Part shown: positions 6,092 through 21,529 of the stretch, piece by piece | Position numbering within the stretch: the stretch's first letter is position 1 | How the letters are laid out: each line of letters begins with the position of its first letter | Source: a virus | Reading direction: 5' to 3' (one strand) | IMG/VR virus record: IMGVR_UViG_3300009529_001370 | Location: 1 to 21,529 of that record | Length of the DNA stretch: 21,529 nt | The notes under the pieces: model-generated | Told to the model about the DNA's origin: nothing | The model's database searches: none | Seen by the model: only the letters and a program-made list of their open reading frames with translations | Made by a program: the position numbers and the translations under genes

Positions 6092-6092
6092 C

Positions 6093-6944: not shown

Positions 6945-6945
6945 A

Positions 6946-7513: not shown

Positions 7514-7524
7514 CCTAATCATCC

Positions 7525-10150: not shown

Positions 10151-10160
10151 AGTGCTTTCT

Positions 10161-10189: not shown

Positions 10190-10216
10190 ACAAAGAAACC
10201 ACCGAATGGTGGTCTC
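10188..10216 (-). terminator. Rho-independent terminator of the leftward early operon
   Basis: Minus strand GAGACCACC-ATTC-GGTGGTTTC forms a 9-bp stem (one G-T pair) with a 4-nt loop, followed by TTTGTTTG. It lies 25 nt after the 42-aa membrane protein gene and abuts the -35 box of the next promoter, so it isolates the early block from the packaging block. Confidence 0.75.
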
Positions 10217-10240
10217 AGGCGAGGAGGACAGGGGAAGTTA

Positions 10241-10369
10241 TCATTTCTCTAGGGTCTGCAACAACCACACAGTTAGAATTCTAGCCGTGTCCCATCCAAT
10301 ATAGTGCCAAAAGCCAAAGATTAATCCAGTGATCGATACGGCCAGCAGCCATTTAAAATCATCTTTCAT
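10241..10369 (-). CDS. Small membrane protein (42 aa), possible holin-like
   Basis: The start is ATG 10369, with GGGG about 9 nt upstream; longer frames overlap the previous gene. It begins MKDDFKWLLAVSITGLIFGF and continues WHYIGWDTARILTVWLLQTLEK. Residues 7-26 form one transmembrane segment, and a second amphipathic or membrane segment may lie at 29-40. It is the last gene before the terminator. A holin or other membrane role is possible from size alone; there is no lysis enzyme nearby to support it. Confidence 0.5.
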   Translation of the reverse strand: MKDDFKWLLAVSITGLIFGFWHYIGWDTARILTVWLLQTLEK

Positions 10370-10371
10370 AT

Positions 10372-10569
10372 TCAGTATCCCCGATAAATCTTTATGCACC
10401 CAAGACCGATTGAAACATACGGACCTCGCCCCTTGTGCCAAATTGGAGTCCAGAGATGCAACCAGAAATGAGTCCTGCCCCAACGAGTCGTCCAATGTCG
10501 AAAGAACTCACGCCGAAATGACATAACTCGAAGGCCACGCCATACGCTTTTCAGATTTACCATTATCAT
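10372..10569 (-). CDS. Small aromatic/basic phage protein (65 aa)
   Basis: The ATG at 10569 overlaps the preceding stop (ATGA). The product is rich in Trp, Arg and His and ends GPYVSIGLGCIKIYRGY. Short proteins with a GPYxSxGLGxxxxYRGY end recur in phage genomes as I recall them, without known function. The stop lies 2 nt before the 42-aa gene start. Confidence 0.6.
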   Translation of the reverse strand: MIMVNLKSVWRGLRVMSFRREFFRHWTTRWGRTHFWLHLWTPIWHKGRGPYVSIGLGCIKIYRGY

Positions 10570-10736
10570 TCTATACTGATCTTTTCTGAGTTGTCAGCCA
10601 AAAAATCAAGCAATCTGGAAATGCTCGGCCTGCCAACTTTTTGGCTCCGCTGTGAAAGCAAGTGCAATCTTTCCGCTAGTCTCTCTAATTTTTCTGGGGT
10701 CTCTGAATTCACGCGCAGGGTAATTGATTTTCTCAT
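10566..10736 (-). CDS. Ribbon-helix-helix-type DNA-binding protein (56 aa)
   Basis: The ATG at 10736 overlaps the previous stop as ATGA; AAGGAG lies 11 nt upstream. The protein begins MRKSITLRVNSETPEKLERL, with an N-terminal beta strand of alternating residues (SITLRV) followed by two helices (TPEKLERLAERL and GRPSISRLLDFLADN). This strand-helix-helix layout is that of small CopG/Arc-type repressors that bind palindromic operators as dimers. It is a candidate regulator of the promoter arrays in this window, which is inference from context only. Confidence 0.65.
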   Translation of the reverse strand: MRKSITLRVNSETPEKLERLAERLHLLSQRSQKVGRPSISRLLDFLADNSEKISIE

Positions 10737-11033
10737 AAATCTATGATCTCCTTTCTTGCCATCCCCCATTCCTTACGATAACCTGCTAATACAGCTCTGG
10801 AGGTTTCGTGAATATCTAACATTGGTCGTACCTTTACCCAAGGCATATCGCTGGCCCAGGCGATCAAATCTTCTGGGTGATGCAAGTAATAATTTAAGTT
10901 CAGCGTCGAAGGTTTCACTATAAGGTATTCCACAGGGGGACTTGGCAAAGAAACGGGCAATGTTCTCTGCTAAGGCAAGCACAGGAATTGTATATCTCTT
11001 GCCATCTGAGAAGGTTATGAGTAGGTGGTTCAT
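10733..11033 (-). pseudogene. Small conserved phage protein broken by a +1 frameshift
   Basis: The 5' part (ATG 11033, MNHLLITFSDGKRYTIPVLA) couples to the upstream stop as ATGA. The 3' part (NYYLHHPEDLIAWASDMPWV to the stop at 10733) lies in the next frame and couples to the downstream start, also as ATGA. The crossover is near 10885-10895 in GAACTTAAATTATTAC, where one extra A or T would explain the shift; corrected, it reads ELNYYLHHPEDLIAWA. The corrected product, about 99 aa, resembles a small phage protein type with an IxFxDGKRYxxP start and a HPEDLIxWA motif. Uncorrected, the first frame runs on to a stop at 10773 with an unrelated tail. Confidence 0.7.
10773..11033 (-). CDS. N-terminal frame of the frameshifted early gene (86 aa as read)
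   Basis: This is the open frame as written in the sequence, from ATG 11033 to the stop at 10773. Residues 1-47 look like authentic protein (DGKRYTIPVLALAENIARFF, then a Glu-rich helix). After about residue 50 the translation becomes Arg/Ser-rich and loses the family pattern because the reading frame has shifted. It is listed so the predicted product is on record; the pseudogene entry describes the intact gene. Function unknown. Confidence 0.45.
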   Translation of the reverse strand: MNHLLITFSDGKRYTIPVLALAENIARFFAKSPCGIPYSETFDAELKLLLASPRRFDRLGQRYALGKGTTNVRYSRNLQSCISRLS

Positions 11034-11326
11034 TGTAAACAACACTCCACACATAAAAAGGGTGCTGGTATAGAATCAAACAAGGACTCTGATTTTGCAT
11101 CGTTTAATTCTTGCTCAATCTGTATGCAACGGTCAATCCGCTTGTCTCCACTTGATCCATAAGCATATAAGGTTATAGATGTATAACTGGGCCATACCAT
11201 ATCTGTCCATACTAATTGCACTTCGGATTCCACGCGCTCCGTATCGGTCTCATCGAGTAAGCGTTGTTTCGCTGCTTCGATGAATTCCAACAATGGTTGT
11301 GGAAGGCGTAAGTTTTTGAGTGTCAT
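11030..11326 (-). CDS. Hypothetical protein (98 aa)
   Basis: The ATG at 11326 lies one base after the preceding stop, with GGAAGG upstream. The protein starts MTLKNLRLPQPLLEFIEAAK and is a mixed alpha/beta protein with a central segment VQLVWTDMVWPSYTSITLYA and a Cys-containing end (FLCVECCLQ). No family is recognised. Its stop overlaps the next start (ATGA). It is part of the leftward early block. Confidence 0.6.
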   Translation of the reverse strand: MTLKNLRLPQPLLEFIEAAKQRLLDETDTERVESEVQLVWTDMVWPSYTSITLYAYGSSGDKRIDRCIQIEQELNDAKSESLFDSIPAPFLCVECCLQ

Positions 11327-11327
11327 T

Positions 11328-11552
11328 TCATGACCTTCCTGTGGCTACCATATAAGATTCAATCATCCTTCGAAAATCTTTTCCGGTGTAGGTAGATAAG
11401 AGGCTTTCCCAAAAGTGCTCACAGCGGATCTCTACACAGTCTGGCGCGATGCAAGCACAGGAGAATCGCTCGTCATAAGGATTCATAGCGTGAAAGTGTG
11501 CGGCCAATAAGCGGACTAGGATTTTCTTTCTTTTTTCTTGCGCTGTTTCCAA
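11328..11552 (-). CDS. Hypothetical protein (74 aa), TTG start
   Basis: Translation appears to begin at TTG 11552, two bases after the preceding stop, with AGGTGTGG upstream. The product starts METAQEKRKKILVRLLAAHF. Its centre carries several Cys and His residues (FSCACIAPDCVEIRCEHFWE), which could bind a metal. No known family. The rare start codon and tight spacing suggest coupled, lower-level translation. Confidence 0.55.
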   Translation of the reverse strand: METAQEKRKKILVRLLAAHFHAMNPYDERFSCACIAPDCVEIRCEHFWESLLSTYTGKDFRRMIESYMVATGRS

Positions 11553-11554
11553 TG

Positions 11555-11809
11555 TTATTCACCACACCTGGATACATCGCTCCATTGACCATCCTGCCAT
11601 ATCTGGATAGTGTAGCGGCCATCACCAGCGGGCTTTGATAAATCCCTTGAAATATTGTAACCATCCTTAAGAAGGCCGTCTTCAAATTCACTGCGTCCGA
11701 GGCTATAAAACCCAAAGATGCCAAGTAGGAGAAGCGATATCAAGACGATAGCACCCAACTCTACCTCATGTTTAGATTCCCATCGTTGCCACCGAGTCTT
11801 TAATCTCAT
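11555..11809 (-). CDS. Membrane-anchored small protein, DGLLxDGY family (84 aa)
   Basis: The start ATG 11809 has a perfect AAAAGGAGGTC site 6 nt upstream and lies about 18 nt after the -10 of promoter P1. The protein has a basic N-terminus (MRLKTRWQRW), one transmembrane helix (residues 18-36, LGAIVLISLLLLGIFGF) and a soluble tail of about 45 aa with DGLLKDGY (44-51), GDGRYTIQIW and DG-W. A gene on the other arm (19317-19541) encodes the same layout and motifs, so they are paralogues. N-in/C-out topology is likely from the positive-inside rule. Function unknown. Confidence 0.75.
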   Translation of the reverse strand: MRLKTRWQRWESKHEVELGAIVLISLLLLGIFGFYSLGRSEFEDGLLKDGYNISRDLSKPAGDGRYTIQIWQDGQWSDVSRCGE

Positions 11810-11826
11810 TATTGACCTCCTTTTAG

Positions 11827-11855
11827 ATTGTACCACAAAGACGTGCTTTTGTCAA
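11827..11855 (-). promoter_or_regulatory. Promoter P1, consensus sigma70
   Basis: Minus strand: TTGACA (11855-11850), 17-bp spacer AAAGCACGTCTTTGTGG, then TACAAT (11832-11827) with TG at the extended -10 place. The upstream box GTCTAAAATAA overlaps the stop of the 81-aa gene. It drives the small membrane protein and genes beyond. Confidence 0.9.
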
Positions 11856-11863
11856 GTGTTATT

Positions 11864-12109
11864 TTAGACGCTCATATGGCTGCAGAACATCTCTTTCAGC
11901 CTTCTTAATTCTGTGCTTACCACTTTTGCTAATTGTTGAGATTCCTTTGCCAACGCTTTACAATATCGTGGATAAGCCTGTATTGCCCATGGTTCAGGAT
12001 CGTCGCAAAGGGGCATAGGAATTTCCAAATTCATATCTCCTTGTGCTTGCCACAATATCTCAGTTATTATGCGGAGACCTCTGATCTCACGCTGTAATTC
12101 TTTGATCAT
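11864..12109 (-). CDS. Hypothetical helical protein (81 aa)
   Basis: The start is ATG 12109, with GGAGG 5 nt upstream; ATG 12121 is possible but has no site. The product starts MIKELQREIRGLRIITEILW and is largely helical, with an acidic/proline middle (MPLCDDPEPWAIQAYPRY) and a second helix (ALAKESQQLAKVVSTELRRL). A helical hairpin is plausible. No family is recognised. It is the first gene of the leftward block and sits about 35 nt downstream of promoter P2. Confidence 0.6.
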   Translation of the reverse strand: MIKELQREIRGLRIITEILWQAQGDMNLEIPMPLCDDPEPWAIQAYPRYCKALAKESQQLAKVVSTELRRLKEMFCSHMSV

Positions 12110-12144
12110 TGTTTCCTCCATATTCTGAAAAGGCGACTCATACG

Positions 12145-12173
12145 ATTGTACCGCAAAGACGTGCTTTCGTCAA
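12145..12173 (-). promoter_or_regulatory. Promoter P2, sigma70 type
   Basis: Minus strand: TTGACG (12173-12168), 17-bp spacer AAAGCACGTCTTTGCGG, TACAAT (12150-12145). The spacer is nearly identical to that of P1 (one difference), so it is a repeated unit and not chance similarity. It drives the 81-aa gene. Confidence 0.85.
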
Positions 12174-12227
12174 ATACAAAGAAATCGCCGACTTCTTTGC
12201 GGCGAAAACACATTCCTGCTTGAGGAA

Positions 12228-12256
12228 TTTATAGCATAAACACTTGCTTTTGTCAA
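12228..12256 (-). promoter_or_regulatory. Promoter P3, sigma70 type
   Basis: Minus strand: TTGACA (12256-12251), 17-bp spacer AAAGCAAGTGTTTATGC, TATAAA (12233-12228) with TG one base upstream. Downstream of it, CAAAGAA/TTCTTTG and CGCCG/CGGCG form competing hairpins at about 12176-12206, so its transcript may be attenuated before reaching P2. Confidence 0.7.
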
Positions 12257-12296
12257 ATGCAAAGAATTCATCGAAAACAGCGATTTCTTTGTGGCG

Positions 12297-12362
12297 AAAG
12301 GCGTCTGACAAGCGACTTTATAGTAGCACAAAGGCGTCTGACAAGCGACTTTATAGTAGCAC
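12297..12362. repeat. Tandem 33-bp direct repeat, two exact copies
   Basis: Copies at 12297-12329 and 12330-12362 are identical; a third partial copy (AAAGGCGT) continues into the spacer of P4. Each unit contains, on the minus strand, a TTGTCA and a TACTATAAA, so it looks like a duplicated promoter segment; TTGTCA-16 bp-TATAAA across copies could itself be a weak promoter. Confidence 0.85.
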
Positions 12363-12381
12363 AAAGGCGTGCTTTTGTCAA
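12353..12381 (-). promoter_or_regulatory. Promoter P4, sigma70 type
   Basis: Minus strand: TTGACA (12381-12376), 17-bp spacer AAAGCACGCCTTTGTGC, TACTAT (12358-12353) with TGC extended -10. The spacer contains AGCAC-N6-GTGCT inverted arms, the same half-sites as the rightward promoters. Upstream box ATCCAAAACAAGAAC matches that of P5. Confidence 0.8.
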
Positions 12382-12452
12382 GTTCTTGTTTTGGATGTTT
12401 AATAAATCGTCGAATGAGGAAAACTGGCCCAAGATTCGCATCTCTATGTATA

Positions 12453-12481
12453 ATAGTAATATAAGAAGATGGTTTTGTCAA
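12453..12481 (-). promoter_or_regulatory. Promoter P5, sigma70 type
   Basis: Minus strand: TTGACA (12481-12476), 17-bp A/T-rich spacer, TACTAT (12458-12453). It is the outermost of the leftward series. Upstream box GTCCAAAATAAGAAT is shared with P4. No gene lies between P5 and P2, so it adds an approximately 330-nt leader to the first gene. Confidence 0.75.
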
Positions 12482-12610
12482 ATTCTTATTTTGGACGTGC
12501 AATGAATACTTTTTGGTTCTTGTTTTTGCGCGTGCAATAAATCATCGAGCGGTGAAGATGACGCTATTTTAGTGGTCTGGGCGAGCTTCGAGCGAAGAGG
12601 ACCCATCGAT

Positions 12611-12657
12611 GCCCCTGCCCCTGCCCCTGCCCCTGCCCCTGCCCCTGCCCCTGCCCC
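12611..12657. repeat. GCCCCT hexamer tandem repeat
   Basis: Seven exact GCCCCT units and a partial eighth (GCCCC) lie between CGAT flanks. On the minus strand this is (AGGGGC)n, with regular G4 runs that could form G-quadruplexes. Unit number is likely to vary by replication slippage. Confidence 0.95.
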
Positions 12658-12765
12658 GATGCAACGAATCCTGCACCATCATTTACATAACCACATCGAA
12701 TAGCCTCTACAATCCCGTCGCTGCTCAAATTGTCGATAAATCCTGCACGAGCCAACGATACAATG

Positions 12766-12889
12766 CTACAATATCTAATAGCCAACAGTAACCAGTAGAA
12801 TGTCATAGCCCTGCGCCTACTGTGATACAGCCTCGGCCACTTGACATAATTTGCTATCAGCGTTTGCTGTTGGCTATGATATATTGTAG
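12766..12889. repeat. Imperfect 25-bp inverted repeat with 74-bp loop
   Basis: 12766-12790 (CTACAATATCTAATAGCC...) matches the reverse complement of 12865-12889 at 22 of 25 positions. It sits in the divergent control region and may be a two-site operator or part of an origin. Confidence 0.75.
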
Positions 12890-13008
12890 TCTATCACACC
12901 GCTACATTGACATAACGAAGCATCGATACCACGTCTGCGACTATCACCGTTTGCAGTCTATTGTAGTCCTATACGTAAAGAAATCTTTAACAGTTTCTTA
13001 ACGCCATT

Positions 13009-13043
13009 TTAATTCCGGCATGGTATCATAGTTATAGTGATAC
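13009..13043 (+). promoter_or_regulatory. Candidate promoter/operator for the rightward operon
   Basis: TTAATT (13009-13014), an 18-bp spacer and TATAGT (13033-13038) make a weak sigma70-like match 30 nt ahead of the first rightward gene. The -10 area is covered by an inverted repeat GTATCA (13023-13028)/TGATAC (13038-13043), so a repressor could compete with RNA polymerase. Match quality is modest. Confidence 0.4.
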
Positions 13044-13067
13044 ACCAAGCACAGGAGGACTGACAGC

Positions 13068-13277
13068 ATGACCAGCAAAGAGCGCAAACGTAGAGACGAT
13101 GCAAAGTTCCAGATCAACTCCGCTCTAGCCGTGATCGGTATGTGGCAGACAGTACCACATGACGTACTGGAGCGAGCATTTGCTGCCCTAGAGGAGCATT
13201 CCGAGTATGTGCGATTATGCTGCAGTCATGGCATTGAGTACTACAGACAGCGGAGGCGCGAACTATGCGGATACTAG
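13068..13277 (+). CDS. Hypothetical helical protein (69 aa)
   Basis: The ATG at 13068 has CAGGAGG 10 nt upstream. The product begins MTSKERKRRDDAKFQINSAL, with a highly basic N-terminus, then two helices (VPHDVLERAFAALEEHSEYV and HGIEYYRQRRRE). The basic helices suggest nucleic-acid binding, with no recognised family. It is the first gene of the rightward arm and overlaps the next small gene by 13 nt. Confidence 0.6.
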   Translation: MTSKERKRRDDAKFQINSALAVIGMWQTVPHDVLERAFAALEEHSEYVRLCCSHGIEYYRQRRRELCGY

Positions 13278-13366
13278 CAAGGCTGCTACTGTGGCTGTGC
13301 CCTTGGCTGCGTTTACGGCCACCAGTGATTGAGTCAATCGACACAAGGAGAATGACAGAATGCTGA
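13265..13366 (+). CDS. Tiny hydrophobic protein (33 aa)
   Basis: The ATG at 13265 lies inside the end of the 69-aa gene. The product begins MRILARLLLWLCPWLRLRPP, with an Arg-flanked hydrophobic segment (residues 4-16), and the frame closes 7 nt into the next gene (ATGCTGA). The packing between two genes favours real coding, but there is only a poor ribosome binding site. It may serve mainly to couple translation of its neighbours. Confidence 0.4.
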   Translation: MRILARLLLWLCPWLRLRPPVIESIDTRRMTEC

Positions 13367-13548
13367 CATCGACGACCAGGCTACAAGAGGAACGAGCAAG
13401 GAAGGATGCGATCAAAGCTTGCTTTGACAGCTTCCGACCCTACACTTGCCCAGGCTGCGAGGACTATCCACGATGCCCGATGGCAAAGCAAGATCGGGAG
13501 GCTTTGCGGAACTTGGCAATGATTCTGGAAATGAGGAGGACAGCATGA
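13360..13548 (+). CDS. Small CxxC protein (62 aa)
   Basis: The ATG at 13360 has AAGGAG 9 nt upstream. The product begins MLTSTTRLQEERARKDAIKA with a basic helix and then has YTCPGCEDYPRCPMA, three cysteines in a possible metal site, followed by a second helix (REALRNLAMILEMRR). No family is recognised. The stop overlaps the next start as ATGA. Confidence 0.6.
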   Translation: MLTSTTRLQEERARKDAIKACFDSFRPYTCPGCEDYPRCPMAKQDREALRNLAMILEMRRTA

Positions 13549-13847
13549 ACAACCAAGATTGGGCATTCAATCTGGCCGACCTCACAACCATTATGCGAAC
13601 GGAGCCGATTCTATTCTCATGTATGATTCAGCCAGTTTTGACCGAAACCACCCAAGATTTTGACAGCAAGGCACTCGACGGAATATACGTTCTATGTTGC
13701 CCGTTGAGTGTTGAACGTCAAAATGCCATCGTCGAGGTTATTCGACGACCTCCAGGAAATCGTAAGCCTGGTATCGCCCGTTATCAGCTCCGCATCAAAC
13801 AAAGAAAGTATGATCGGAGTGAACGCGGACGCTGGGATACAGTCTAG
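13545..13847 (+). CDS. Hypothetical protein (100 aa)
   Basis: The start is ATG 13545, with GAGGAGG 6 nt upstream and an ATGA overlap with the previous stop; the longer frame from 13446 runs inside the previous gene. It begins MNNQDWAFNLADLTTIMRTE and ends with a strongly basic tail (RKPGIARYQLRIKQRKYDRS). No family is recognised. The first 24-bp iteron begins right at its stop codon. Confidence 0.6.
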   Translation: MNNQDWAFNLADLTTIMRTEPILFSCMIQPVLTETTQDFDSKALDGIYVLCCPLSVERQNAIVEVIRRPPGNRKPGIARYQLRIKQRKYDRSERGRWDTV

Positions 13848-13905
13848 TCGGTCAAGTGGCCTCGGTCATAATCGGTCAAGTGGCCGAGGCCATAATCAGT
13901 CAAGT
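13848..13905. repeat. 24-bp iteron array, three copies
   Basis: TCGGTCAAGTGGCC starts at 13848 and 13872, and the variant TCAGTCAAGT at 13896, an exact 24-bp period. Copies are joined by TCGGTCATAA or GAGGCCATAA, so each unit carries a GGCC-GAGGCC palindromic part. A 24-bp period is about 2.3 helical turns, fitting cooperative protein binding. Confidence 0.85.
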
Positions 13906-13910
13906 CGGGG

Positions 13911-13965
13911 CAGGGGCGAAACAGGGGCGAAACAGGGGCGAAACAGGGGCGAAACAGGGGCGAAA
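13911..13965. repeat. 11-bp tandem repeat CAGGGGCGAAA, five copies
   Basis: Five exact CAGGGGCGAAA units run directly into CAGGAGGGCAAG and the ATG at 13978, so the ribosome binding site looks like a variant of the repeat itself. Copy number is likely variable. Confidence 0.95.
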
Positions 13966-13977
13966 CAGGAGGGCAAG

Positions 13978-14337
13978 ATGCCAACAAGGTTAGCGAACAC
14001 CATCAAAATCAGTATCCCAGATATTCGGGCCGAGATCAAAAAGCTGCCGAATACACGAGATGCTGATCCCATGTGTCGAGATCAGTTCCTGCAGTGTTTC
14101 CGGCGCGAGTTGAGTTGGTGCGTTGCTGAAGCGTTGCGGGCAACCGAGGGCGAAGTGCTCTTCTCAGATCTGCAAGTGCCAAGTCAGGCTAACGGTCAAT
14201 ACATCATGAATTTCGAGGTGTTTGATCGGTCAAGAGCACAACGCAACGCCTACAACTTCCACGGTCAAAACACCTCGCAGTGGTTGTATGCCGGCTGCAT
14301 TCTCTATCAGGAAGGAGAAGTATCGACGCATCATTAA
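13978..14337 (+). CDS. Hypothetical protein (119 aa)
   Basis: The start is ATG 13978, with GGAGG 6 nt upstream; the longer frame from 13708 reads through the tandem repeats and the previous gene and is rejected. The product begins MPTRLANTIKISIPDIRAEI. It has a helical core (DQFLQCFRRELSWCVAEALR) and a C-terminal part with YIMNFEVFDRSRAQ and a QWLYAGCILYQEGE end. No family is recognised. Its expression may depend on the upstream 11-bp repeats. Confidence 0.65.
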   Translation: MPTRLANTIKISIPDIRAEIKKLPNTRDADPMCRDQFLQCFRRELSWCVAEALRATEGEVLFSDLQVPSQANGQYIMNFEVFDRSRAQRNAYNFHGQNTSQWLYAGCILYQEGEVSTHH

Positions 14338-14358
14338 CAGGATACCACAATAGAATAT

Positions 14359-14376
14359 CCGAGACGCCAGTCTCGG
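14359..14376 (+). other. Strong short hairpin between genes
   Basis: CCGAGAC-GCCA-GTCTCGG forms a perfect 7-bp GC-rich stem 21 nt after the stop of the 119-aa gene. There is no T-tract, so it is more likely an RNA stability or processing element than a terminator. Confidence 0.55.
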
Positions 14377-14445
14377 AGTCAGCCTAGAAAATCGTTTCTG
14401 GACTGACGCGGAGGCTGGAGAATCGACGAAAGCAGGGAGGGCAAA

Positions 14446-14664
14446 GTGAAAAGATGGTATATCGGACATCGAGAAGGAAGGAAGGAAATCTTTCAGGCGG
14501 AGAGCACACCAACTGAGGAAAGTCATGGGCATCTGTATGTAGCAGCTATCGGCCCCTTCCGCACGAAACGGGCAGCTATCTGGAGTTGTCAGTACGGTGC
14601 GCACTGGGCAACTATAGCTGAGGCTGAGAAGGCAGCCAAGAGAGACGCGGAATTGTCGGCATAG
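14446..14664 (+). CDS. Hypothetical protein (72 aa), GTG start
   Basis: The GTG at 14446 follows CAGGGAGGGCAAA, the leader also found before two other genes here. The product begins MKRWYIGHREGRKEIFQAES. The pattern of strand, GPFRTKRAAIWSC and AEAEKAAKRDAE resembles short phage proteins with an SPOR- or DUF-like fold, where 'GPF-T---A' precedes a helix; this is a guess from pattern. The preceding 108 nt carry only the hairpin. Confidence 0.6.
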   Translation: MKRWYIGHREGRKEIFQAESTPTEESHGHLYVAAIGPFRTKRAAIWSCQYGAHWATIAEAEKAAKRDAELSA

Positions 14665-14671
14665 CAGGGAA

Positions 14672-14698
14672 GGCCAGTCAGTGAGGAGCTGGCTGGCC
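14672..14698 (+). other. 10-bp stem-loop after the 72-aa gene
   Basis: GGCCAGTCAG (14672-14681) pairs with CTGGCTGGCC (14689-14698) with one G-T pair and a 7-nt loop TGAGGAG. It lacks a T-tract. The loop exposes GAGGAG, which resembles a ribosome binding site, but no start codon follows closely. Confidence 0.55.
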
Positions 14699-14710
14699 AA
14701 ACCATCATAA

Positions 14711-14793
14711 TCGGTCAAGTGGCCGAGGCCATAATCGGTAAAGTGGGGGCTGGGTCCAGGCAGGGGCAACCCAGGGGCAACCCAGGGGCCAGG
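14711..14793. repeat. Second iteron plus 11-bp repeat module
   Basis: Iterons TCGGTCAAGTGGCC (14711) and TCGGTAAAGT (14735) again have a 24-bp period. They are followed by CAGGGGCAACC at 14761 and 14772 and a decayed third unit. The order and spacing match the module at 13848-13980, and it also ends in GGCGAAACAGGGAGGGCAAA before a start codon. Confidence 0.85.
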
Positions 14794-14840
14794 GAGGGGC
14801 AACCATAGGGCGACGAAATCGGCGAAACAGGGAGGGCAAA

Positions 14841-15047
14841 GTGAACGAGGGGATGCGAAAAGCGCAGAACAAGGCGAATCAACTACTCAACAAGGCGAGG
14901 CGCGAAAGAGATCGTAAAGGCTATCGTGAGAATCTTGGCTATGACAAATGTCAAGTTCTCCAAGACTACTGCAGTGAAGTTGGCCTGTCATATTCCGAGA
15001 CCAGTCACATCCTGGCATACTTTGAAGAGGGATGCGACGCTCTGTAG
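14841..15047 (+). CDS. Hypothetical protein (68 aa), GTG start
   Basis: The GTG at 14841 follows CAGGGAGGGCAAA. The product begins MNEGMRKAQNKANQLLNKAR with a long basic helix (residues 3-28) and then VLQDYCSEVGLSYSETSHIL, whose helix-turn-helix-like pattern may bind DNA. No family is recognised. It is the gene controlled by the second repeat module. Confidence 0.6.
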   Translation: MNEGMRKAQNKANQLLNKARRERDRKGYRENLGYDKCQVLQDYCSEVGLSYSETSHILAYFEEGCDAL

Positions 15048-15067
15048 AAGCGCAAGGGGAGGGCAAA

Positions 15068-15328
15068 ATGCCAAGAAACGTCCGTAACTTTTGGATCGAG
15101 GCCGAAGTAGAGGGGCGGAAGTCAAAAATCGCCTTTGGGCCACAGGGCAAAGAGGACGGCTTTCGTTTGACTGTCTATATGCGCAACAAGGACGAAGTCG
15201 AGGCCGTTTTGGGACTCCAGGGCAAAGTAGAGGGCGAAAACGTAGAACTCTGGATCGACTCTGGTGAGGTTGGCGAGGAGGGTCAAGAGGCGAATCAGGG
15301 GATCATCATAATTTGCCGAAAACGGTAG
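15068..15328 (+). CDS. Hypothetical beta-rich protein (86 aa)
   Basis: The start is ATG 15068 after GGGGAGGGCAAA; the frame from 15032 overlaps the previous gene. It begins MPRNVRNFWIEAEVEGRKSK. The pattern FWIEAEVEG-KS-IAFGPQGKEDGF is a strand-turn-strand element with a gap and then VEAVLGLQGKVEGENVELWI, a compact beta-rich fold seen in short phage and plasmid proteins. Function unknown. Confidence 0.65.
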   Translation: MPRNVRNFWIEAEVEGRKSKIAFGPQGKEDGFRLTVYMRNKDEVEAVLGLQGKVEGENVELWIDSGEVGEEGQEANQGIIIICRKR

Positions 15329-15345
15329 AACACAGGGGGTGAAAA

Positions 15346-15606
15346 GTGGAAGACTACAAGGCTCGCGTGGTAGGTTTCATCTGGTGGCCGAACGGTATGG
15401 AGTGCAGCCAGGAGTACCGATTCCCTGCTAGGGATGACCAAGACGCGACGGAAAAGATCGAACGGATAGCAGGGGACTTTTCGGAGGTAAAAGACTTTGA
15501 ACTTTTCAGGCGCGAGAATTGCCCGCATTGTGGCCACACAGTCTGGGAATGTGTCAAGGAATTCACCGTAGAGGGGGCGTCAATTTACCTTGAGTGCATG
15601 GCATAA
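15346..15606 (+). CDS. Zinc-ribbon-like small protein (86 aa)
   Basis: The GTG at 15346 follows CAGGGGGTGAAAA. The product begins MEDYKARVVGFIWWPNGMEC, has a central RDDQDATEKIERIAGDF, and a CPHCGHTVWEC segment with three Cys and one His that could bind zinc. It is the last gene before the large repeat region. Exact function unknown. Confidence 0.65.
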   Translation: MEDYKARVVGFIWWPNGMECSQEYRFPARDDQDATEKIERIAGDFSEVKDFELFRRENCPHCGHTVWECVKEFTVEGASIYLECMA

Positions 15607-15612
15607 AGAAAC

Positions 15613-15640
15613 TTGAGTCCCACCCACTCAACTCTCTAGT
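15613..15640 (+). terminator. Weak hairpin after the rightward gene cluster
   Basis: TTGAGT (15613-15618) pairs with ACTCAA (15626-15631) around a 7-nt loop, followed by CTCTCTAG. Stem and T-tract are poor, so termination is only a possibility. Confidence 0.3.
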
Positions 15641-16803
15641 CGTATAGGGGCATAAAGACAGCGAAAAAAGCGTACTAGGGCGCAAAAAGCGGTGAAAAGC
15701 GTAGATTGTGCTACGAAACACGTAAAAAGGCGTCGAAATGTAGGCTCTAAAAGACCAATGAACAAAGAAAAAACTGGTATAGAGCGTAGAAGGTGGTGAA
15801 CGACTGCACAAGGAAGCAGGGAAAACAGGGAATCGGGGCGTCCTTGCAAAAAAGAAAACAGGGAAAGACTGATAACGAATGTAGCGACTACTGTTTATTG
15901 CTGTGCTGTACCTTAAGGCATAAAGACAGTAGATAACGATGATAGAACACAAAGAAACGATACGTTATGGTCAAGTAAAGATACATAAAATGCACTATTG
16001 CTAAAGTTGATAGGGAGGGACTCAAGGTAAGAGACCAATGAACAAAGAGAAAACTGCAAAAAACTGCGCGTGGCGTAAATGAGCGTAATTGAGTACCTTG
16101 AGGCACTAAGACAGCACAGGGTGATAATAGAACACAGAGGAATCATACGTTATGGTAAAGTAAAGATACATAAAATGCACTATTGCATCAAATATGTAAC
16201 TGTACAAGACTCTGTGACCTATATACCAAAATCCAATTTGACATAATACTAAACGCATCATACGCAAAACTGCGAGCACCAAAATTGTTCCCTTTTCGGC
16301 AAAAAATATGCAATAGTGCGTTTCTTGTATGTTTACTTTACCATAATGTATCGTTTCTTTGCTTCCTTCTGTGTTGGTCTATGGTTTGCTGAAAAAAGTG
16401 CAAGAGTGTCTGAAAATGCAAGAGTGCATTTTATGTATCTTTACTTTACCATAACGTATCATTCTTCTGCAGTGTGCTAACATTCTCTACTGTCTTTATG
16501 CCTAAAGGTGTTTACTTGACATAACGTTTTCGCCTTCCACCTTTTATAGTATTATCCTGTTTACCCTGTGTTCTTTGCTGTCTTTATTCCGAGAAAGTTG
16601 AGTCTCTGAGGCTCAAGTATTGTGAAGAGACAATTTTATGTCAAGTAAATCAAGCATCCAGCCTAGCGAAGCGTGTTTCCCTGTTTTCCCTGCTTCTGTG
16701 CATTTCGCGTATCCCTTCTCGCACAAGGTCACTACTTACCCGTTTTCTATGCCCCTGTGCAGTTTATGTATGCGAGTTTTCAGGACACCTTAACCACCCA
16801 AAT

Positions 16804-16832
16804 TTGACAATTCATAGCACTTGTGCTACGAT
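16804..16832 (+). promoter_or_regulatory. Promoter A with TAGCAC-TT-GTGCTA operator
   Basis: TTGACA (16804-16809), 17-bp spacer, TACGAT (16827-16832) with TGC extended -10. The palindrome TAGCAC-TT-GTGCTA (16815-16828) fills the spacer and touches the -10. It drives the SWIM gene, whose ribosome binding site follows 20 nt later. Same sequence as promoters B and C. Confidence 0.88.
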
Positions 16833-16860
16833 ATAATCAAAGTCCAAAGGAGTAAATGCC

Positions 16861-17148
16861 ATGACCGAAACCCGTAAGCAGAAAGCACGGCGATTGGTGG
16901 ACGAGGGACACGTGACGATTCTTCGTCATTCCTCACGCGCTACAGAGGCTTACGTCCGAGACGATTCCCTTACCTACACGACGCTCATCCATTCGAGCGG
17001 CTGGTTTTTCTGCAGCTGCGTTTGGGGCCAAATCCACTCCTACGCCAGTCATTGTTGTGTCCACGCACTCGCGGTCAAACTGGCCGTGGAAAGCGACATA
17101 CCCAAGGATACCGACCTGCCAAAGGAGGAACCGTGCAACAAGTCATAG
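16861..17148 (+). CDS. SWIM zinc-finger protein (95 aa)
   Basis: The ATG at 16861 has AAAGGAG 8 nt upstream and promoter A above that. The protein has a strand-rich N-terminal half and a SWIM signature: WFFCSCVWGQ then CCVHALAVKLA, giving C51-x-C53-x12-C66-x-H68. SWIM domains bind DNA or proteins through zinc; most known examples are embedded in larger proteins, so a 95-aa stand-alone version is minimal. It is the lead gene of this sub-operon. Its C-terminus (EPCNKS) is encoded by the sequence that also forms the next start. Confidence 0.85.
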   Translation: MTETRKQKARRLVDEGHVTILRHSSRATEAYVRDDSLTYTTLIHSSGWFFCSCVWGQIHSYASHCCVHALAVKLAVESDIPKDTDLPKEEPCNKS

Positions 17149-17363
17149 AGCGACCAGGCCCAGAAGATTATTCTCCCGATCCAGAGAAACTCCTGAAAGT
17201 CGCATTGAAGGTCTTGGTGAGAGCAAGGGATGCACTTGTCACAAAGGATATGTCCCCGCTCGGCTCTGATGCAATCTATTGGGCTTCCGAGGCAACCGAC
17301 CATACTAGGCTCGCACTCGTAGCGTTGGAGAGGAAAAAGGAGGAGACGTGCAACAAGCCATAG
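17133..17363 (+). CDS. Hypothetical helical protein (76 aa), GTG start
   Basis: The GTG at 17133 has AAAGGAGGAACC immediately upstream; the longer frame from 17022 is inside the SWIM gene. The product begins MQQVIERPGPEDYSPDPEKL and is largely helical (LLKVALKVLVRARDALVTKD). Its start region and end repeat those of the next gene, suggesting duplication. Function unknown. Confidence 0.6.
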   Translation: MQQVIERPGPEDYSPDPEKLLKVALKVLVRARDALVTKDMSPLGSDAIYWASEATDHTRLALVALERKKEETCNKP

Positions 17364-17557
17364 AGCAGCTGGACAAGGCCCAAGGGCACTCGGTGAAAGC
17401 ACTAGAAAAGCTGTATCAGGAGCCATCGTCCAGAGCGGCATATCTAGCAAGGCTAAACGTGATAGACGCTATTGACCTTCTTAGACACGCACTGGAACTG
17501 CTGAAGCAAGAGCAGGAGGCGATGAATGAAAGAACCGTGGGAGATGAGACGCGATGA
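17348..17557 (+). CDS. Hypothetical helical protein (69 aa), GTG start
   Basis: The GTG at 17348 follows AAGGAGGAGAC. The product begins MQQAIEQLDKAQGHSVKALE and continues with helices RAAYLARLNVIDAIDLLRHA and LELLKQEQEAM. It is probably a diverged paralogue of the preceding gene, from matching start, size class and helical pattern. It overlaps the next gene by 32 nt. Confidence 0.6.
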   Translation: MQQAIEQLDKAQGHSVKALEKLYQEPSSRAAYLARLNVIDAIDLLRHALELLKQEQEAMNERTVGDETR

Positions 17558-17780
17558 ATATGCAGCGACGGCTACAGGAGACGAAGCAGAGGCCGCCATC
17601 AAACGTTTGAGTATAGAGATGCCTGGTTTTGTTGGTCGGCAACGGTCTATGTGGCCTGTGGGACGCTTTTTTGGGAAAGCACACCGCTTGTTGATCTTGG
17701 AAGCCCTAACTGCTGGCAAGCCTGTGCCCCCCGAAGTCCTGGCCGACTATCCTGACTTGGCAGCGCGGTATCCTGCATAG
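17526..17780 (+). CDS. Small phage protein with GKPVPPEVLADYPDL motif (84 aa)
   Basis: The ATG at 17526 has CAGGAGG 8 nt upstream. The protein begins MKEPWEMRRDEYAATATGDE. Residues 53-78 read HRLLILEALTAGKPVPPEVL followed by ADYPDL, a short motif common in phage and plasmid proteins, sometimes as a repeated domain within larger helicase or polyvalent proteins. Here it stands alone. Molecular role not known to me. Confidence 0.7.
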   Translation: MKEPWEMRRDEYAATATGDEAEAAIKRLSIEMPGFVGRQRSMWPVGRFFGKAHRLLILEALTAGKPVPPEVLADYPDLAARYPA

Positions 17781-17799
17781 ATACAGAAAGGGATTATCA

Positions 17800-18030
17800 G
17801 TGGTGACTCAATACAGACACTATCAAGATGAGACTGGCCTGTTCGTGTGTCCGATCACGAGCAAGCGGGCAGACTATGTTTGGGGTGATCGGGATCGCGG
17901 GCGTGGTTTCACTTGTTGCGTGCATTGTACTGGCGAGCATCGTACTCCAGGCGGGGATCTCCACGCGCTACAGGCTCGCCGACAGAGGTCTGCCCCGCTA
18001 GTGAATAGTTATCAGAAGGAGAAAACATGA
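17800..18030 (+). CDS. Small Cys-containing protein (76 aa), GTG start
   Basis: The start is GTG 17800 or the adjacent GTG 17803 (MTQYRHYQDE), with AAAGGG about 8 nt upstream. A CPITSK and a later CCVHCTGEH segment could form a zinc site. The C-terminus is basic and low-complexity (ALQARRQRSAPLVNSYQKEK). The stop overlaps the next start as ATGA. No family is recognised. Confidence 0.5.
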   Translation: MVTQYRHYQDETGLFVCPITSKRADYVWGDRDRGRGFTCCVHCTGEHRTPGGDLHALQARRQRSAPLVNSYQKEKT

Positions 18031-18368
18031 GAACAAACGACTGGTACAAATGCACCGCACGAGAGGCATCGTCCCGCGACGATAAACCTCTTATGAGGGC
18101 AGCCCAAAACGCACAATTTGCGGCACAACCCTTCGAGACTTACATTGATGGCGTGATTCGCCACCTCAACGGTGCTATTGTTGAGATTGAACGCATCGTC
18201 AAAAGTGCAATTGAAGACGGCGACGATCCACGAGCGTCCGCCACCTGTGTTGCAGAGCGGATCATCCAGACCGTCACCTGGGCGGTGGCAAACGCACAGA
18301 TCGGGTACTTGGTCACTTCCGCAGCGGCACTCGATGAAGCAGCGAAGAAGTTACCCAAGGAAACATAA
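18027..18368 (+). CDS. Hypothetical helical protein (113 aa)
   Basis: The ATG at 18027 has AGAAGGAG upstream and an ATGA overlap with the previous stop. The product begins MRTNDWYKCTAREASSRDDK, then forms long helices (YIDGVIRHLNGAIVEIERIV, CVAERIIQTVTWAVANAQIG, and an Ala-rich last helix). A four-helix bundle is plausible. No family is recognised. Confidence 0.6.
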   Translation: MRTNDWYKCTAREASSRDDKPLMRAAQNAQFAAQPFETYIDGVIRHLNGAIVEIERIVKSAIEDGDDPRASATCVAERIIQTVTWAVANAQIGYLVTSAAALDEAAKKLPKET

Positions 18369-18386
18369 GCAGAAAGGAAAAATCTG

Positions 18387-18893
18387 ATGCCTAACTTGCG
18401 AGAATTGTTGCGGAATGTCGACGAGTATGACGAGACCATCAGCCAGGCAGCCTATACCTTATTAGAGGCACTGATTGAGATCCTCGAACCAACCCGTGTT
18501 TTGAATCCCAACGAGACAGTTGCGGCACAGCACCGAGAGATGCGGCATCTCCAACAGCAAACCATAGAATTGGTGGAAACAGCGGAGGGGCTACGCGGCG
18601 AGTTGGGGGAAGCCAGGAAGCACAAAGATAGCTACCGCAAGCGTTATATGCGTGTCCTAAATGAGCGAGATCAAATACGGGCGAAGTTGGAAATCAAGAA
18701 CAATGACGCCGATCTTGGGCGGATGGTGCGGAGGATGCGGAGTAATAGTCAACTCGTCAAGGGCGGCGTGTTCTATTGGGGTGCGGTCAAGAATGTGCTG
18801 AATGATGAATGGTGTCTAGCAGAGCAACCGCCTCTTAGCAGTGACCCTGACATCGCTCTGCGGTCTATTCAAAAGGAGGAAGACGATGCCTAG
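18387..18893 (+). CDS. Coiled-coil protein (168 aa)
   Basis: The ATG at 18387 has AAAGGA upstream. The protein begins MPNLRELLRNVDEYDETISQ. Residues 50-105 are a strong coiled coil (REMRHLQQQTIELVETAEGL, then RKHKDSYRKRYMRVLNERDQ), and the C-terminal part has GGVFYWGAVKNVLNDEWCLA. It overlaps the next gene by 8 nt; the next product has a similar coiled-coil part, so the two may interact. Confidence 0.65.
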   Translation: MPNLRELLRNVDEYDETISQAAYTLLEALIEILEPTRVLNPNETVAAQHREMRHLQQQTIELVETAEGLRGELGEARKHKDSYRKRYMRVLNERDQIRAKLEIKNNDADLGRMVRRMRSNSQLVKGGVFYWGAVKNVLNDEWCLAEQPPLSSDPDIALRSIQKEEDDA

Positions 18894-19266
18894 ACCTATA
18901 CCTAGCCTGCGAGAACAGCTGTTGTGTATCCACGTCGGCGGGCCAGCCATTATCAGTGGAGACCATTACGGTTTGCTTATGAGCATAATAAACAAACTGG
19001 AGATACTAGCCGAGAAAGTCGAGGCATTAGAAGAGCGACAAGAGCCTTGTGGTATCACAGACGAAACGAGCCACCGCATTAGGGCACTGGAGGCGGCGGT
19101 GAGGGGCTACGAATCCCAGCACGTCCCTGTTGCCGATGACAAGGAAGAAATCGAGAGCTTGCGCAAGGAACGCGACGAGGCTAAAGCAACCAAAGCGGAA
19201 GCCATTGAAGACACGATCATGTGGCGTAACCGTACTCGAAGCCCATATCCAGCGAAACACAAATGA
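18886..19266 (+). CDS. Coiled-coil protein (126 aa)
   Basis: The start is ATG 18886, with GGAGG 7 nt upstream, overlapping the previous stop; the longer frame from 18841 lies inside the previous gene. It begins MPRPIPSLREQLLCIHVGGP and contains two coiled-coil stretches (SIINKLEILAEKVEALEERQ and KEEIESLRKERDEAKATKAE). N-terminal PRPIPSLREQLL echoes the MPNLRELL start of its neighbour. No family is recognised. Confidence 0.65.
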   Translation: MPRPIPSLREQLLCIHVGGPAIISGDHYGLLMSIINKLEILAEKVEALEERQEPCGITDETSHRIRALEAAVRGYESQHVPVADDKEEIESLRKERDEAKATKAEAIEDTIMWRNRTRSPYPAKHK

Positions 19267-19316
19267 TGGCGGTTTCACACAGGGAGCTTGGCGAACACGC
19301 GACATCAGGAGGCAAA

Positions 19317-19541
19317 ATGAAGGAGAAGGATTGGACTAAAGTAATCGTCGTGGTTGCGATTGCGGTATCTCTGTTTCTAGTCTCACTGTATTTTGCCATT
19401 CTGGACAGGGGTAACTACAATATCCTCGACGGTCTCTTAGCAGACGGATACGATGTAGTCATTGATCGTTCGATTCGGCCTGGAGAGGGACGTTACATAG
19501 TACGGATTTGGCGCGACGGCTGGGTGGCGGTAGAAAGATGA
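19317..19541 (+). CDS. Membrane-anchored small protein, DGLLxDGY family (74 aa)
   Basis: The start is ATG 19317, with GGAGG 5 nt upstream; the frame from 19263 has no site. One transmembrane helix (residues 9-28, VIVVVAIAVSLFLVSLYFAI) is followed by a soluble tail with DGLLADGY (38-45), PGEGRYIVRIWRDGW and a basic end. This matches the 84-aa gene at 11555-11809 in layout and in the motifs DGLLxDGY and GRYxxxIWxDG. The pair sits on opposite arms. The tail probably lies outside the membrane on the periplasmic or outer side. Function unknown. Confidence 0.75.
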   Translation: MKEKDWTKVIVVVAIAVSLFLVSLYFAILDRGNYNILDGLLADGYDVVIDRSIRPGEGRYIVRIWRDGWVAVER

Positions 19542-19954
19542 ATGACCAAGCACAACTATGTTACGTGGAATTGCCCTTCGTGTGGTTCACGATGAATCTG
19601 TGTGAACAATCGGGCGACGATTGGAATGACGTACCTTTTGAATACAACGCTGAACCTCCATCTTTGAGGCGTGGGCAAGATTGGGAAATATTTCGTGTGG
19701 CCATATTTGCCAACCCCTACAACTACGAATTGTTGACGCCGGACAGCGGCTATTATGGCGGCCCGTGGTCAGTTGATGACATAAATGCGGGAGCCACACC
19801 GTGGTTGCGTTTGACTGACTTACATTGTCAGCATCTAACGATGGCGAGTCTTATGGCAGGCACTACCTACGCCGAATTCAAGGAATTCGCTGCTCGTTAT
19901 GGGTTGTTCATCTGGCTCGACGAAGGCACTTTAGCCGAATTTGACAAATCATAG
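19538..19954 (+). CDS. Hypothetical protein (138 aa)
   Basis: The ATG at 19538 overlaps the previous stop (ATGA). The product begins MNDQAQLCYVELPFVWFTMN and is aromatic-rich with NPYNYELLTPDSGYYGG and PWLRLTDLHCQHLT. No family is recognised. Its last codons (EFDKS, stop) form the -35 region of promoter B, so gene end and promoter share bases. Confidence 0.6.
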   Translation: MNDQAQLCYVELPFVWFTMNLCEQSGDDWNDVPFEYNAEPPSLRRGQDWEIFRVAIFANPYNYELLTPDSGYYGGPWSVDDINAGATPWLRLTDLHCQHLTMASLMAGTTYAEFKEFAARYGLFIWLDEGTLAEFDKS

Positions 19955-19969
19955 CACTTGTGCTATGAT
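19941..19969 (+). promoter_or_regulatory. Promoter B with CATAGCAC-TT-GTGCTATG operator
   Basis: TTGACA (19941-19946), 17-bp spacer, TATGAT (19964-19969). The palindrome CATAGCAC-TT-GTGCTATG (19950-19967) has perfect 8-bp arms, the best of the three copies. It drives the DUF551-like gene; the ribosome binding site GAAAGGAG follows. Confidence 0.9.
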
Positions 19970-19993
19970 ATGCTCATTGAAAGGAGATCAAAA

Positions 19994-20293
19994 ATGCCAA
20001 TTTGGATTTCGACTAACGATGAGCCTGTGCCACTCACCTGTGATGTCTTGATTTGTCACAGAGGTTACATTTACAAGGATGGAGATTGGGAAGAGGGTAT
20101 TTGCGTTTCTTTGGCTCGTGCTTTGGTTAGCCATACTACAAGTGGCCGAATGATACAACATGAATACTGGCAACCCAAACCCAGTTTTTTCCATTGGCCT
20201 AACCGAACATTGATTCCCTACTCTGAAATCACTCATTGGATGCCTGCTCCGAGTTTACCAGAGCCACCAAAGGAGGCGCAATGCAAACTCTAG
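19994..20293 (+). CDS. DUF551-like protein (99 aa)
   Basis: The start is ATG 19994, with GAAAGGAG 6 nt upstream. The product begins MPIWISTNDEPVPLTCDVLI and ends with EITHWMPAPSLPEPP, the W-I--N--P--L---VLI and V/I-T-HWMPLPEPP pattern of the DUF551 family, found in many phages and prophages with no firmly known function. It follows promoter B directly and overlaps the next gene by 13 nt. Confidence 0.75.
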   Translation: MPIWISTNDEPVPLTCDVLICHRGYIYKDGDWEEGICVSLARALVSHTTSGRMIQHEYWQPKPSFFHWPNRTLIPYSEITHWMPAPSLPEPPKEAQCKL

Positions 20294-20940
20294 ACTTTGG
20301 TGCTATCATAGATAAAAACGAGTCCTGGTACGAGGACTACGATCTAACTTGTCCCTACTGCCACGGGGAACTAGAACATCACTGTTCGACGTGCGAAGGG
20401 GAAGGAACGATTGAGTGCTCAGAGTGCGCGGGATTTGGTATGGTAGCTGATCGAGAATGTCAGGAGTGCAAGGGAGAAGGGGGCTTTCCTTGCAAGGACT
20501 GTGATGGTGAGGGTGAAATCTCCTGTGAGCAATGCTCCGACGGTCACTTTGAGATCATGTGGAACACAGCCTACGAGGTCAAGGTTTGGGATGATTGGCT
20601 CGACGTTGATCGCGAGAGTGCCAAGTGGCAGGAAGTCTACAAGCTGGCTTGGGATAATGGCTTCTGCCTGATCGAGCACGGAGATAAGCGGTATCTCCTT
20701 ATGGGCATGTGCGGGCAAGATTGCACTTGGCTGATCCACTACACCAGGTGGAAGCTGCAGGGCTACCTGGATGAAGAGGATTGCCAAGATTGCATTGGCT
20801 CTGGTGGCTATGTCTTCTTACGCGACCAGGAGAAAAGGCGCGAACTCTGTGAATATATCAAGGGCCGACTAACGCCACCAGAAGACTACGCCAAAAGTTA
20901 CGCCTATAACATCGCCAAGATTGACCGCATTTATGGCTAA
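20281..20940 (+). CDS. DnaJ-type zinc-finger protein without J domain (219 aa)
   Basis: The ATG at 20281 has CAAAGGAGG upstream. Residues 24-85 hold six CxxC pairs (24/27, 35/38, 46/49, 60/63, 71/74, 82/85), several in the CxxCxGxG form of the DnaJ cysteine-rich zinc domain (CSTCEGEG, CKDCDGEG); a seventh, CQDCIGSG, lies near residue 180. There is no HPD-bearing J domain and no DnaJ C-terminal domain; the rest is an acidic/aromatic region with KVWDDWLDVDRESAKWQEVY. Such domains bind unfolded protein or act as a redox/zinc scaffold. A chaperone-adaptor role for phage assembly is inference. Confidence 0.85.
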   Translation: MQTLDFGAIIDKNESWYEDYDLTCPYCHGELEHHCSTCEGEGTIECSECAGFGMVADRECQECKGEGGFPCKDCDGEGEISCEQCSDGHFEIMWNTAYEVKVWDDWLDVDRESAKWQEVYKLAWDNGFCLIEHGDKRYLLMGMCGQDCTWLIHYTRWKLQGYLDEEDCQDCIGSGGYVFLRDQEKRRELCEYIKGRLTPPEDYAKSYAYNIAKIDRIYG

Positions 20941-21190
20941 ACGTACTTGGGTTCGAGCAACCGATTCCGAAGGACGTAGCATCATCGCTGAGGACAACCA
21001 CGATGGCACGTTTACCACTTGGGGATATAGTGCTATTGGAAGAACTGGTGAGCCATTACCAGGAGTCACTATCTCACCCATAACGAAGAAAGACAAAAGC
21101 GAAATAGAACGACTGGAAAAGCTGTTGGCAAAGTCCGAGGAGCGCAGCCAAGCATGGTACGATTGCTACCAGATAGCGAAGGGACGATGA
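20933..21190 (+). CDS. Hypothetical protein with C-terminal coiled coil (85 aa)
   Basis: The ATG at 20933 overlaps the previous stop; it lacks a visible ribosome binding site, so coupling is expected. TTG 20921 is an alternative start. The product begins MAKRTWVRATDSEGRSIIAE, with a beta-rich first half (NHDGTFTTWGYSAIG) and a helical, coiled-coil end (KSEIERLEKLLAKSEERSQA). No family is recognised. The stop overlaps the next start as ATGA. Confidence 0.55.
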   Translation: MAKRTWVRATDSEGRSIIAEDNHDGTFTTWGYSAIGRTGEPLPGVTISPITKKDKSEIERLEKLLAKSEERSQAWYDCYQIAKGR

Positions 21191-21456
21191 CTGATCGACT
21201 CGACATTGGTGATGGAGACAGTATCCCGATGACCATTGCTGCCATTCAACCAGGCGATTACATCTGCAGCCAATTAGCCCCACACATCGTCGGTCGTGTA
21301 GTGCGACGTGGTGTTGTGACCCGCTATCCTGCATTCATCATCGAGAACTACAGGGGCGTTCTAGCTGTGGTTTTGGAATCTGATACGGTGATTCTTGGTT
21401 TAGGCAATATCCAGGACTTAGAACAACGCATAAGCGACGAATTTGACAATTCATAG
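21187..21456 (+). CDS. Hypothetical beta-rich protein (89 aa)
   Basis: The start is ATG 21187 (ATGA overlap). The product begins MTDRLDIGDGDSIPMTIAAI and is rich in hydrophobic strands (GRVVRRGVVTRYPAFIIENY, GVLAVVLESDTVILGLG), ending DEFDNS. A small SH3-like or KOW-like barrel is possible. Its last codons overlap promoter C. Confidence 0.55.
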   Translation: MTDRLDIGDGDSIPMTIAAIQPGDYICSQLAPHIVGRVVRRGVVTRYPAFIIENYRGVLAVVLESDTVILGLGNIQDLEQRISDEFDNS

Positions 21457-21471
21457 CACTTGTGCTACGAT
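21443..21471 (+). promoter_or_regulatory. Promoter C with TAGCAC-TT-GTGCTA operator
   Basis: TTGACA (21443-21448), 17-bp spacer, TACGAT (21466-21471) with the TAGCAC-TT-GTGCTA palindrome at 21454-21467. Like promoter B it overlaps the last codons of the upstream gene. The gene it drives lies outside the window. Confidence 0.88.
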
Positions 21472-21529
21472 ATAGTCAGGAAGACCTGGACAAGCCTGCC
21501 GATGTTTGTGCGTTGAACTTGTACTTGAC

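Follow-up and report, generated by a model that had tools for sequence, protein, structure and literature searches.

Promoter cassettes and gene ends

The window (the whole stretch of DNA that was analyzed) is a 21.5-kb virus record; its minus strand carries a gene set led by the terminase, and its plus strand holds numerous small open reading frames (ORFs). On the plus strand there are also three copies of a promoter cassette: A (16801..16839), with its -35 box TTGACA at 16804-16809, a dyad at 16815-16828, and the -10 box TACGAT at 16827-16832; B (19938..19976), with its -35 box at 19941, a dyad at 19952-19965, and the -10 box TATGAT; and C (21440..21478), with its -35 box at 21443, a dyad at 21454-21467, and the -10 box TACGAT. 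An earlier note on this DNA had described three identical promoters with a palindrome in the spacer at 16804, 19941, and 21443, and pattern scans located all three. "Identical" was slightly too strong: A and C do agree at all 29 bp, but B departs from them at two positions (AAATCA for AATTCA and TATGAT for TACGAT). A scan of the window for TTGACA-N15-19-TAYGAT gave 3 matches where 0.00 were expected, and TTGACA-17-TAYGAT with TAGCACTTGTGCTA occurs exactly three times, at these sites, with none expected by chance. When the whole record was scanned for the 14-bp palindrome, we found three exact matches, every one on the plus strand and within these promoters; if up to two mismatches are allowed, the chance expectation is 0.11. 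The block that is common to the copies spans about 39 bp (AAT-TTGACA-...-TAYGAT-ATNNTCA).

Exact cassettes are also present in three other viral contigs, and further relatives were gathered by using looser patterns and the terminase. The relatives are G1 (82 kb), G2 (69 kb), G3 (45.6 kb), G4 (29.6 kb), and G5 (79.7 kb). G1 to G3 and G5 match the window in patches, mostly at 75-94% identity, and G5 is circularly permuted relative to it. With G4, the window shares only a homing-endonuclease-like stretch; the region beyond it is common to G4, G1, and G3. G2 was not counted as independent because parts of it are practically identical to G1 and G3. The genes of G1 include DNA polymerase A, anaerobic ribonucleotide reductase, a helicase, methyltransferases, and homing endonucleases. 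The terminase is just 22-26% identical to those of phage records and the putative capsid protein has no match; this phage family is known from metagenomes, and a T4-like assignment was not possible from terminase or capsid comparisons. Among isolated phages, a search with the 39-bp cassette gave chance-level matches only.

A search for the full cassette found the three copies in the record and, across all of the genomes, copies of the block at up to six places in the relatives. Sites A, B, and C are shared by the window, G1, and G3; site D is found in G1, G3, and G4; and site E is found in G1, G3, G4, and G5. G1 has a second copy at site A (A'), and there is one additional copy each in G3 (G3-29663) and G5 (G5-14777). 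A dyad-like site at 16952 in G5 lacks a -35 box and was therefore not accepted as a copy. Contigs L068 and L072 were set aside as further relatives: in the stretch that they share with G3, they match it at 99.97-100% identity, and they have no copy of the cassette family (family 1). Also, bases 1-19615 of G2 (IMGVR_UViG_3300031539_012188) are 100% identical to G3, and bases 19518-68926 are 99.998% identical to G1; G2 is a chimeric assembly or else a recombinant of very recent origin.

At sites B and C, the cassette doubles as the end of a gene. The ORF that runs into cassette B (19538..19954, plus strand) encodes 138 amino acids and has no family match, and the ORF that runs into cassette C (21154..21456, plus strand) encodes 100 amino acids, with a tail that is kept in G1 and G3. 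In both cases, the last codons and the stop lie inside the cassette: GAATTTGAC is read from the -35 region, and the stop codon TAG comes from the left arm of the palindrome. The cassettes encode EFDKS-stop (B) and EFDNS-stop (C), and the two ORFs end in LAEFDKS-stop and SDEFDNS-stop, which agrees with the earlier note's claim that the -35 box at B and C encodes the end of the upstream protein. Its proposal, that one cassette comprising a gene end and the following promoter was copied, gains support from the relatives, where the cassette recurs at other places and unrelated proteins have cassette-encoded ends. In particular, proteins without detectable mutual similarity end in LAEFDKS (B), SDEFDNS or SDEFDKA (C), NLKFDKS (D), or PTKFDKS (G3), and the tail NLTNR at site E belongs to a HEAT-like protein in G3, G4, and G5 and to a methyltransferase in G1. 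Overall, six unrelated proteins have cassette-derived tails, which read FD(K/N)(S/A)-stop in one frame and NLTNR-stop in another. Inside the proteins of these phages, FD(K/N) is rare (22 occurrences in 64,259 residues). The two roles of the cassette can be separated: at site C of G3, the promoter has decayed while DEFDKA-stop was preserved via synonymous changes, and at site B of G1, the promoter is preserved and the reading frame stops earlier. Cassette A is intergenic and has no FDxS reading frame. The first ORF that it is predicted to drive (16861..17148, plus strand; 95 amino acids) has a strong Shine-Dalgarno sequence and is not at this place in G3.

The spacer palindrome

Each of the promoters in the window has the sequence TTGTGC-TAYGAT, which was overlooked in the earlier note. 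We take TTGTGC-TAYNAT to be a TRTG/extended -10 element, and therefore the right arm of the palindrome is presumably fixed by promoter function. In an alignment of 15 sequences, the invariant columns are TTGACAA, C10, T12, G14, TGT, CTA, and the last T of the -10 box, and T9, T18, and G22 are nearly invariant. The copies keep the -35 box, the reading frame as far as the stop codon, and the extended -10 element, and the triplet directly after the stop codon varies. The cassette would be a strong promoter for the host's sigma-A/70, with a TRTG/extended -10 element, that starts the next sub-operon.

The earlier note had also read the palindrome as the site of a shared repressor; of its claims, this one holds up least well. 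Such an operator would be bound next to the -10 box by a dimeric repressor of the phage or the host, and TAGCAC-TT-GTGCTA would silence or time all of the copies jointly. The dyad is perfect at all three sites in the window and at A, A', and C in G1, and at site B of the window its arms extend to 10 bp (ATCATAGCAC-TT-GTGCTATGAT). However, these 10-bp arms are complete in the window only, and the full dyad is absent, with the promoter kept, from site B in G1 and G3, from all of the D and E sites, and from G3-29663 and G5-14777. Conservation of the dyad at the promoters that would be co-regulated, as expected of an operator, is found within the window only. The left arm varies at both orthologous and paralogous sites. 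Across the copies of site B in the window, G1, and G3, 36 of 39 positions agree, and all three of the variable positions are in the inner CACT (P = 0.0004), which places them in the inner left arm and the loop. TAGCAC is replaced by TAGTGA at site D and by TTGACA at site E. Counts of pairing across the dyad equaled those in shuffled data, and covariation did not exceed that of shuffles. Operators for phage repressors overlap promoters in the OR and OL regions of lambda-type phages; the dyad resembles these in that it lies in the spacer between the -35 and -10 boxes and touches the -10 box, but unlike them it is not conserved among copies or orthologs, and no repressor was identified.

A repressor gene for the palindrome was not recognized in either the window or G1. 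Searches of the G1 proteins (71 were scanned, and the small ones were rescanned against families in addition) recognized no repressor, and among the matches listed for Pfam and PHROGs, there was no HTH repressor, CI-like repressor, or integrase in G1 or the window, although one could be missed. Two candidates have a ribbon-helix-helix-like pattern by eye: a 56-amino-acid protein (window 10566..10736, minus strand), which is conserved in G1, G2, G3, and G5 and is the sole candidate regulator inside the window, and a conserved 228-amino-acid protein in G1 (19498-20181). Pfam support for these two is weak or absent and their structure models are poor; Pfam, PHROGs, and PDB sequence searches and two structure predictions gave nothing firm.

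We best explain the dyad as the result of stacked constraints, which is a simpler account and fits most of the copies, site E especially. The sequence before the variable triplet comprises the -35 box and the last codons of the upstream gene, through its stop codon (GAC AAA TCA TAG); the sequence after it is the extended -10 element. The fixed right arm would be the extended -10 element plus the TA of the -10 box, and TAG in the left arm would be the upstream stop codon. The free triplet, CAC, between TAG and the right arm, may have completed the dyad by chance and then been copied along. At site E, the upstream genes run into the cassette in a different frame, a TGA in the spacer matches exactly that frame (AAT CGT TGA), and the dyad is lost. 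One point against this account is the noncoding site A, where the left portion of the spacer is preserved even though no gene end is encoded there; stacked constraints would explain this only as copying.

The best case for an operator comes from outside this family. The layout TTGACA-N5-TAGCAC-NN-GTGCTA occurs in 20 contigs of unrelated phages, about 10 of which are independent, as compared to 1 in each of two controls, and in some of these contigs an RHH-like or XRE gene lies no more than about 1 kb away (the RHH matches are weak). This over-representation hints that the dyad can be a true operator elsewhere, and the layout may be a recurrent operator type. With the full dyad absent from so many cassettes that retain their promoters, we consider an operator in the phages of this study to be doubtful. 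A literature search for the palindrome found none.

Unrelated viral contigs that combine this layout with a good -10 box include L008, L010, L013, L015, L016, L017, L020, and L022. RHH-like genes are nearby in L013 and L016, and in L016, another half-copy follows directly downstream and an XRE gene lies some 0.9 kb upstream.

Probable gene exchange at the cassettes

Comparisons of the flanks link the cassettes to changes in gene content. At site A, G1 has two copies that are identical at 36 of 36 positions and that flank 1.37 kb. The 80 bp upstream of site A in the window match those of the first copy (0.90) and not those of the second copy (0.42), and the 40 bp downstream match those of the second copy (0.90) and not those of the first copy (0.44), where random sequences would give about 0.45. 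Site A of the window looks like either the product of recombination between copies or the parent of an insertion, and an assembly that collapsed at the 36-bp repeats is unlikely.

At site E, the cassettes of G1, G3, G4, and G5 are alike (0.89-1.00) and their flanks are mostly unalignable. The methyltransferase of G1 ends in LANLTNR-stop at the place where the HEAT-like protein ends in G4 and G5; the HEAT-like gene of G1 ends instead in GLK-stop and overlaps the start of the methyltransferase. A homolog of this methyltransferase (58%) is elsewhere in G5. At site B, the window has one extra gene (19994..20293, plus strand; 99 amino acids) that is not there in G1 or G3 and has AAAGGAG repeats at its borders. 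The following ORF (20281..20940, plus strand; 219 amino acids), which is cysteine rich with CxxC repeats, lies directly after cassette B in G1 and G3. Some exchanges seem to use the Shine-Dalgarno repeat AAAGGAG and not the promoter.

As compared to shifted sites, homology breaks between G1 and G3 are concentrated near cassettes (7/11 versus 2.6 expected, P = 0.009; 6/8 versus 2.0 expected, P = 0.003). Between the window and G1, the corresponding numbers are 4/6 and 2.0 (P = 0.10), and for the window itself the enrichment is not significant (P = 0.10 and 0.20). The enrichment is only about 2- to 4-fold because homology breaks are dense in this region.

We propose that the three sites are probably copies of an early-promoter cassette of the phage, located at the joints of small accessory-gene modules. 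Sequence comparison shows that the same block of about 36 bp recurs, that its 5' part also provides the last codons and the stop of the gene before it, for several unrelated proteins, and that gene content changes at its edges; the repeated sequence would supply the homology by which genes are gained, lost, and exchanged. From sequence comparison, the best reading of the cassettes is as strong, host-type, extended -10 early promoters that are fused to gene ends and act as recombination joints. More tentatively, the cassette may be a universal gene joint, in which a newcomer upstream would receive a C-terminal tail and a stop and a newcomer downstream would receive a strong early promoter, so that small genes could be swapped in a single step and would still be expressed and correctly terminated. 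It is unlikely that the copies are instead plain recent duplications, promoters copied by chance with no role in exchange, and that breaks coincide with them as both are intergenic: breaks are indeed frequent at all gene borders and the statistics for the window alone are weak, but the chimeric flanks at site A and the swapped tails at site E place the joints at the cassette itself, within about 10 bp.

It is of practical interest how phages can keep swapping small accessory genes and still have them expressed, and a promoter that carries the preceding gene's stop and a tail common to unrelated proteins offers a specific joint that can be tested. The cassette described in the earlier note is confirmed, and its fusion with gene ends where modules meet makes it more interesting than first thought. 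It also serves as a warning that a neat palindrome in a promoter can come from stacked constraints and not from a repressor.

Known systems and other features

The cassette is best read as a variant of the promoter-cassette shuffling that was described in T4-type phages. The promoter early stem-loops (PeSLs) of those phages are mobile regulatory cassettes (Arbiol et al. 2010; Comeau et al. 2014; as cited in PMC4503421 and PMC3950731). PeSLs resemble the cassette in being repeated early promoters between small genes of a plastic region, with a proposed role as homology for shuffling modules among related phages. The promoters in the window, as judged from their motifs, are likewise repeated between genes in a plastic region, and the chimeric flanks at site A and the exchanged tails at site E point to modules that are exchanged by homologous recombination at the cassette. 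The cassette differs in that no terminator-like stem-loop is joined to the promoter at any of the sites in the window, the phage could not be recognized as T4-like from its terminase and putative capsid protein, and the cassette encodes the C terminus and stop of the upstream gene. A PeSL-like hairpin, formed in the RNA by the 3' end of the upstream mRNA and helping to terminate or protect it, is quite improbable: RNA folding allows a hairpin at A and B, with a 9-bp stem and a 4-nt loop at B in the window, G1, and G3 (-13.5, -14.4, and -12.4 kcal/mol; z = -3.3 to -4.4), the changes at B among these three sit in the loop or make a G-U wobble, and site D of G1 has one double change from C-G to U-A, but no U tract follows the stem, a terminator scan had no match at any cassette in the window, site E pairs poorly and cannot form the stem, and measures of covariation do not exceed those of shuffles.

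In the haloarchaeal virus HGTV-1, a promoter element with an inverted repeat motif precedes most ORFs of one genome arm, and shuffling was proposed (PMC3950731); the repeated combination is alike, but the element there is of the archaeal TATA type, whereas the cassette has bacterial -35 and extended -10 elements with the repeat inside the promoter. In Cluster K mycobacteriophages, there are start-associated sequences (SAS/ESAS), of which SAS is a 13-bp translation-start element (GGGATAGGAGCCC) and ESAS has 17-bp arms with a spacer of 4-13 bp (PMC3203893). Like the cassette, these are short and repeated, some contain inverted repeats, and they precede accessory genes that belong to various families, but their sequence and position differ from those of the cassette, which does not have GGGATAGGAGCCC at a start codon.

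A second promoter family, TTGACA-AAAGCACGYCTTTGTGS-TACWAT, was missed by the earlier note. It is on the opposite strand, at 11855, 12173, 12256, and 12381, and all four copies point leftward: 11827..11855 (minus strand; TTGACA-AAAGCACGTCTTTGTGG-TACAAT), 12145..12173 (minus strand; TTGACG), 12228..12256 (minus strand; degenerate), and 12353..12381 (minus strand; TTGACA-AAAGCACGCCTTTGTGC-TACTAT). This cluster (11827-12481, minus strand), with its conserved spacer AAAGCACGYCTTTGTGS, is repeated in G1, G3, and G5 as well, and a 33-bp tandem duplication lies within it at 12297-12362.

The intergenic region at 15908-16509 of the window contains several direct and inverted repeats of 50-94 nt (82-88% complementary). 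It is 88-94% conserved in G1 and G3, has no convincing ORF and no match in Rfam, and is possibly an origin or an RNA. The G1 contig, L035, encodes a 560-amino-acid phage protein (1815-3497, minus strand), to which the TROVE and Ro60 vWA domains found by Pfam in the G1 protein set probably belong (assigned by eye). Among the structural genes of the window are homing endonuclease genes of the GIY-YIG/NUMOD3 type and the HNH type (9326-10180 and 4025-4558), and related stretches are found at other places in G1, G2, G3, and G4. Finally, short tandem repeats with TGCCCC and GCGAAACAGGG units lie between small ORFs at 12610-12657 and 13866-13970 of the window.
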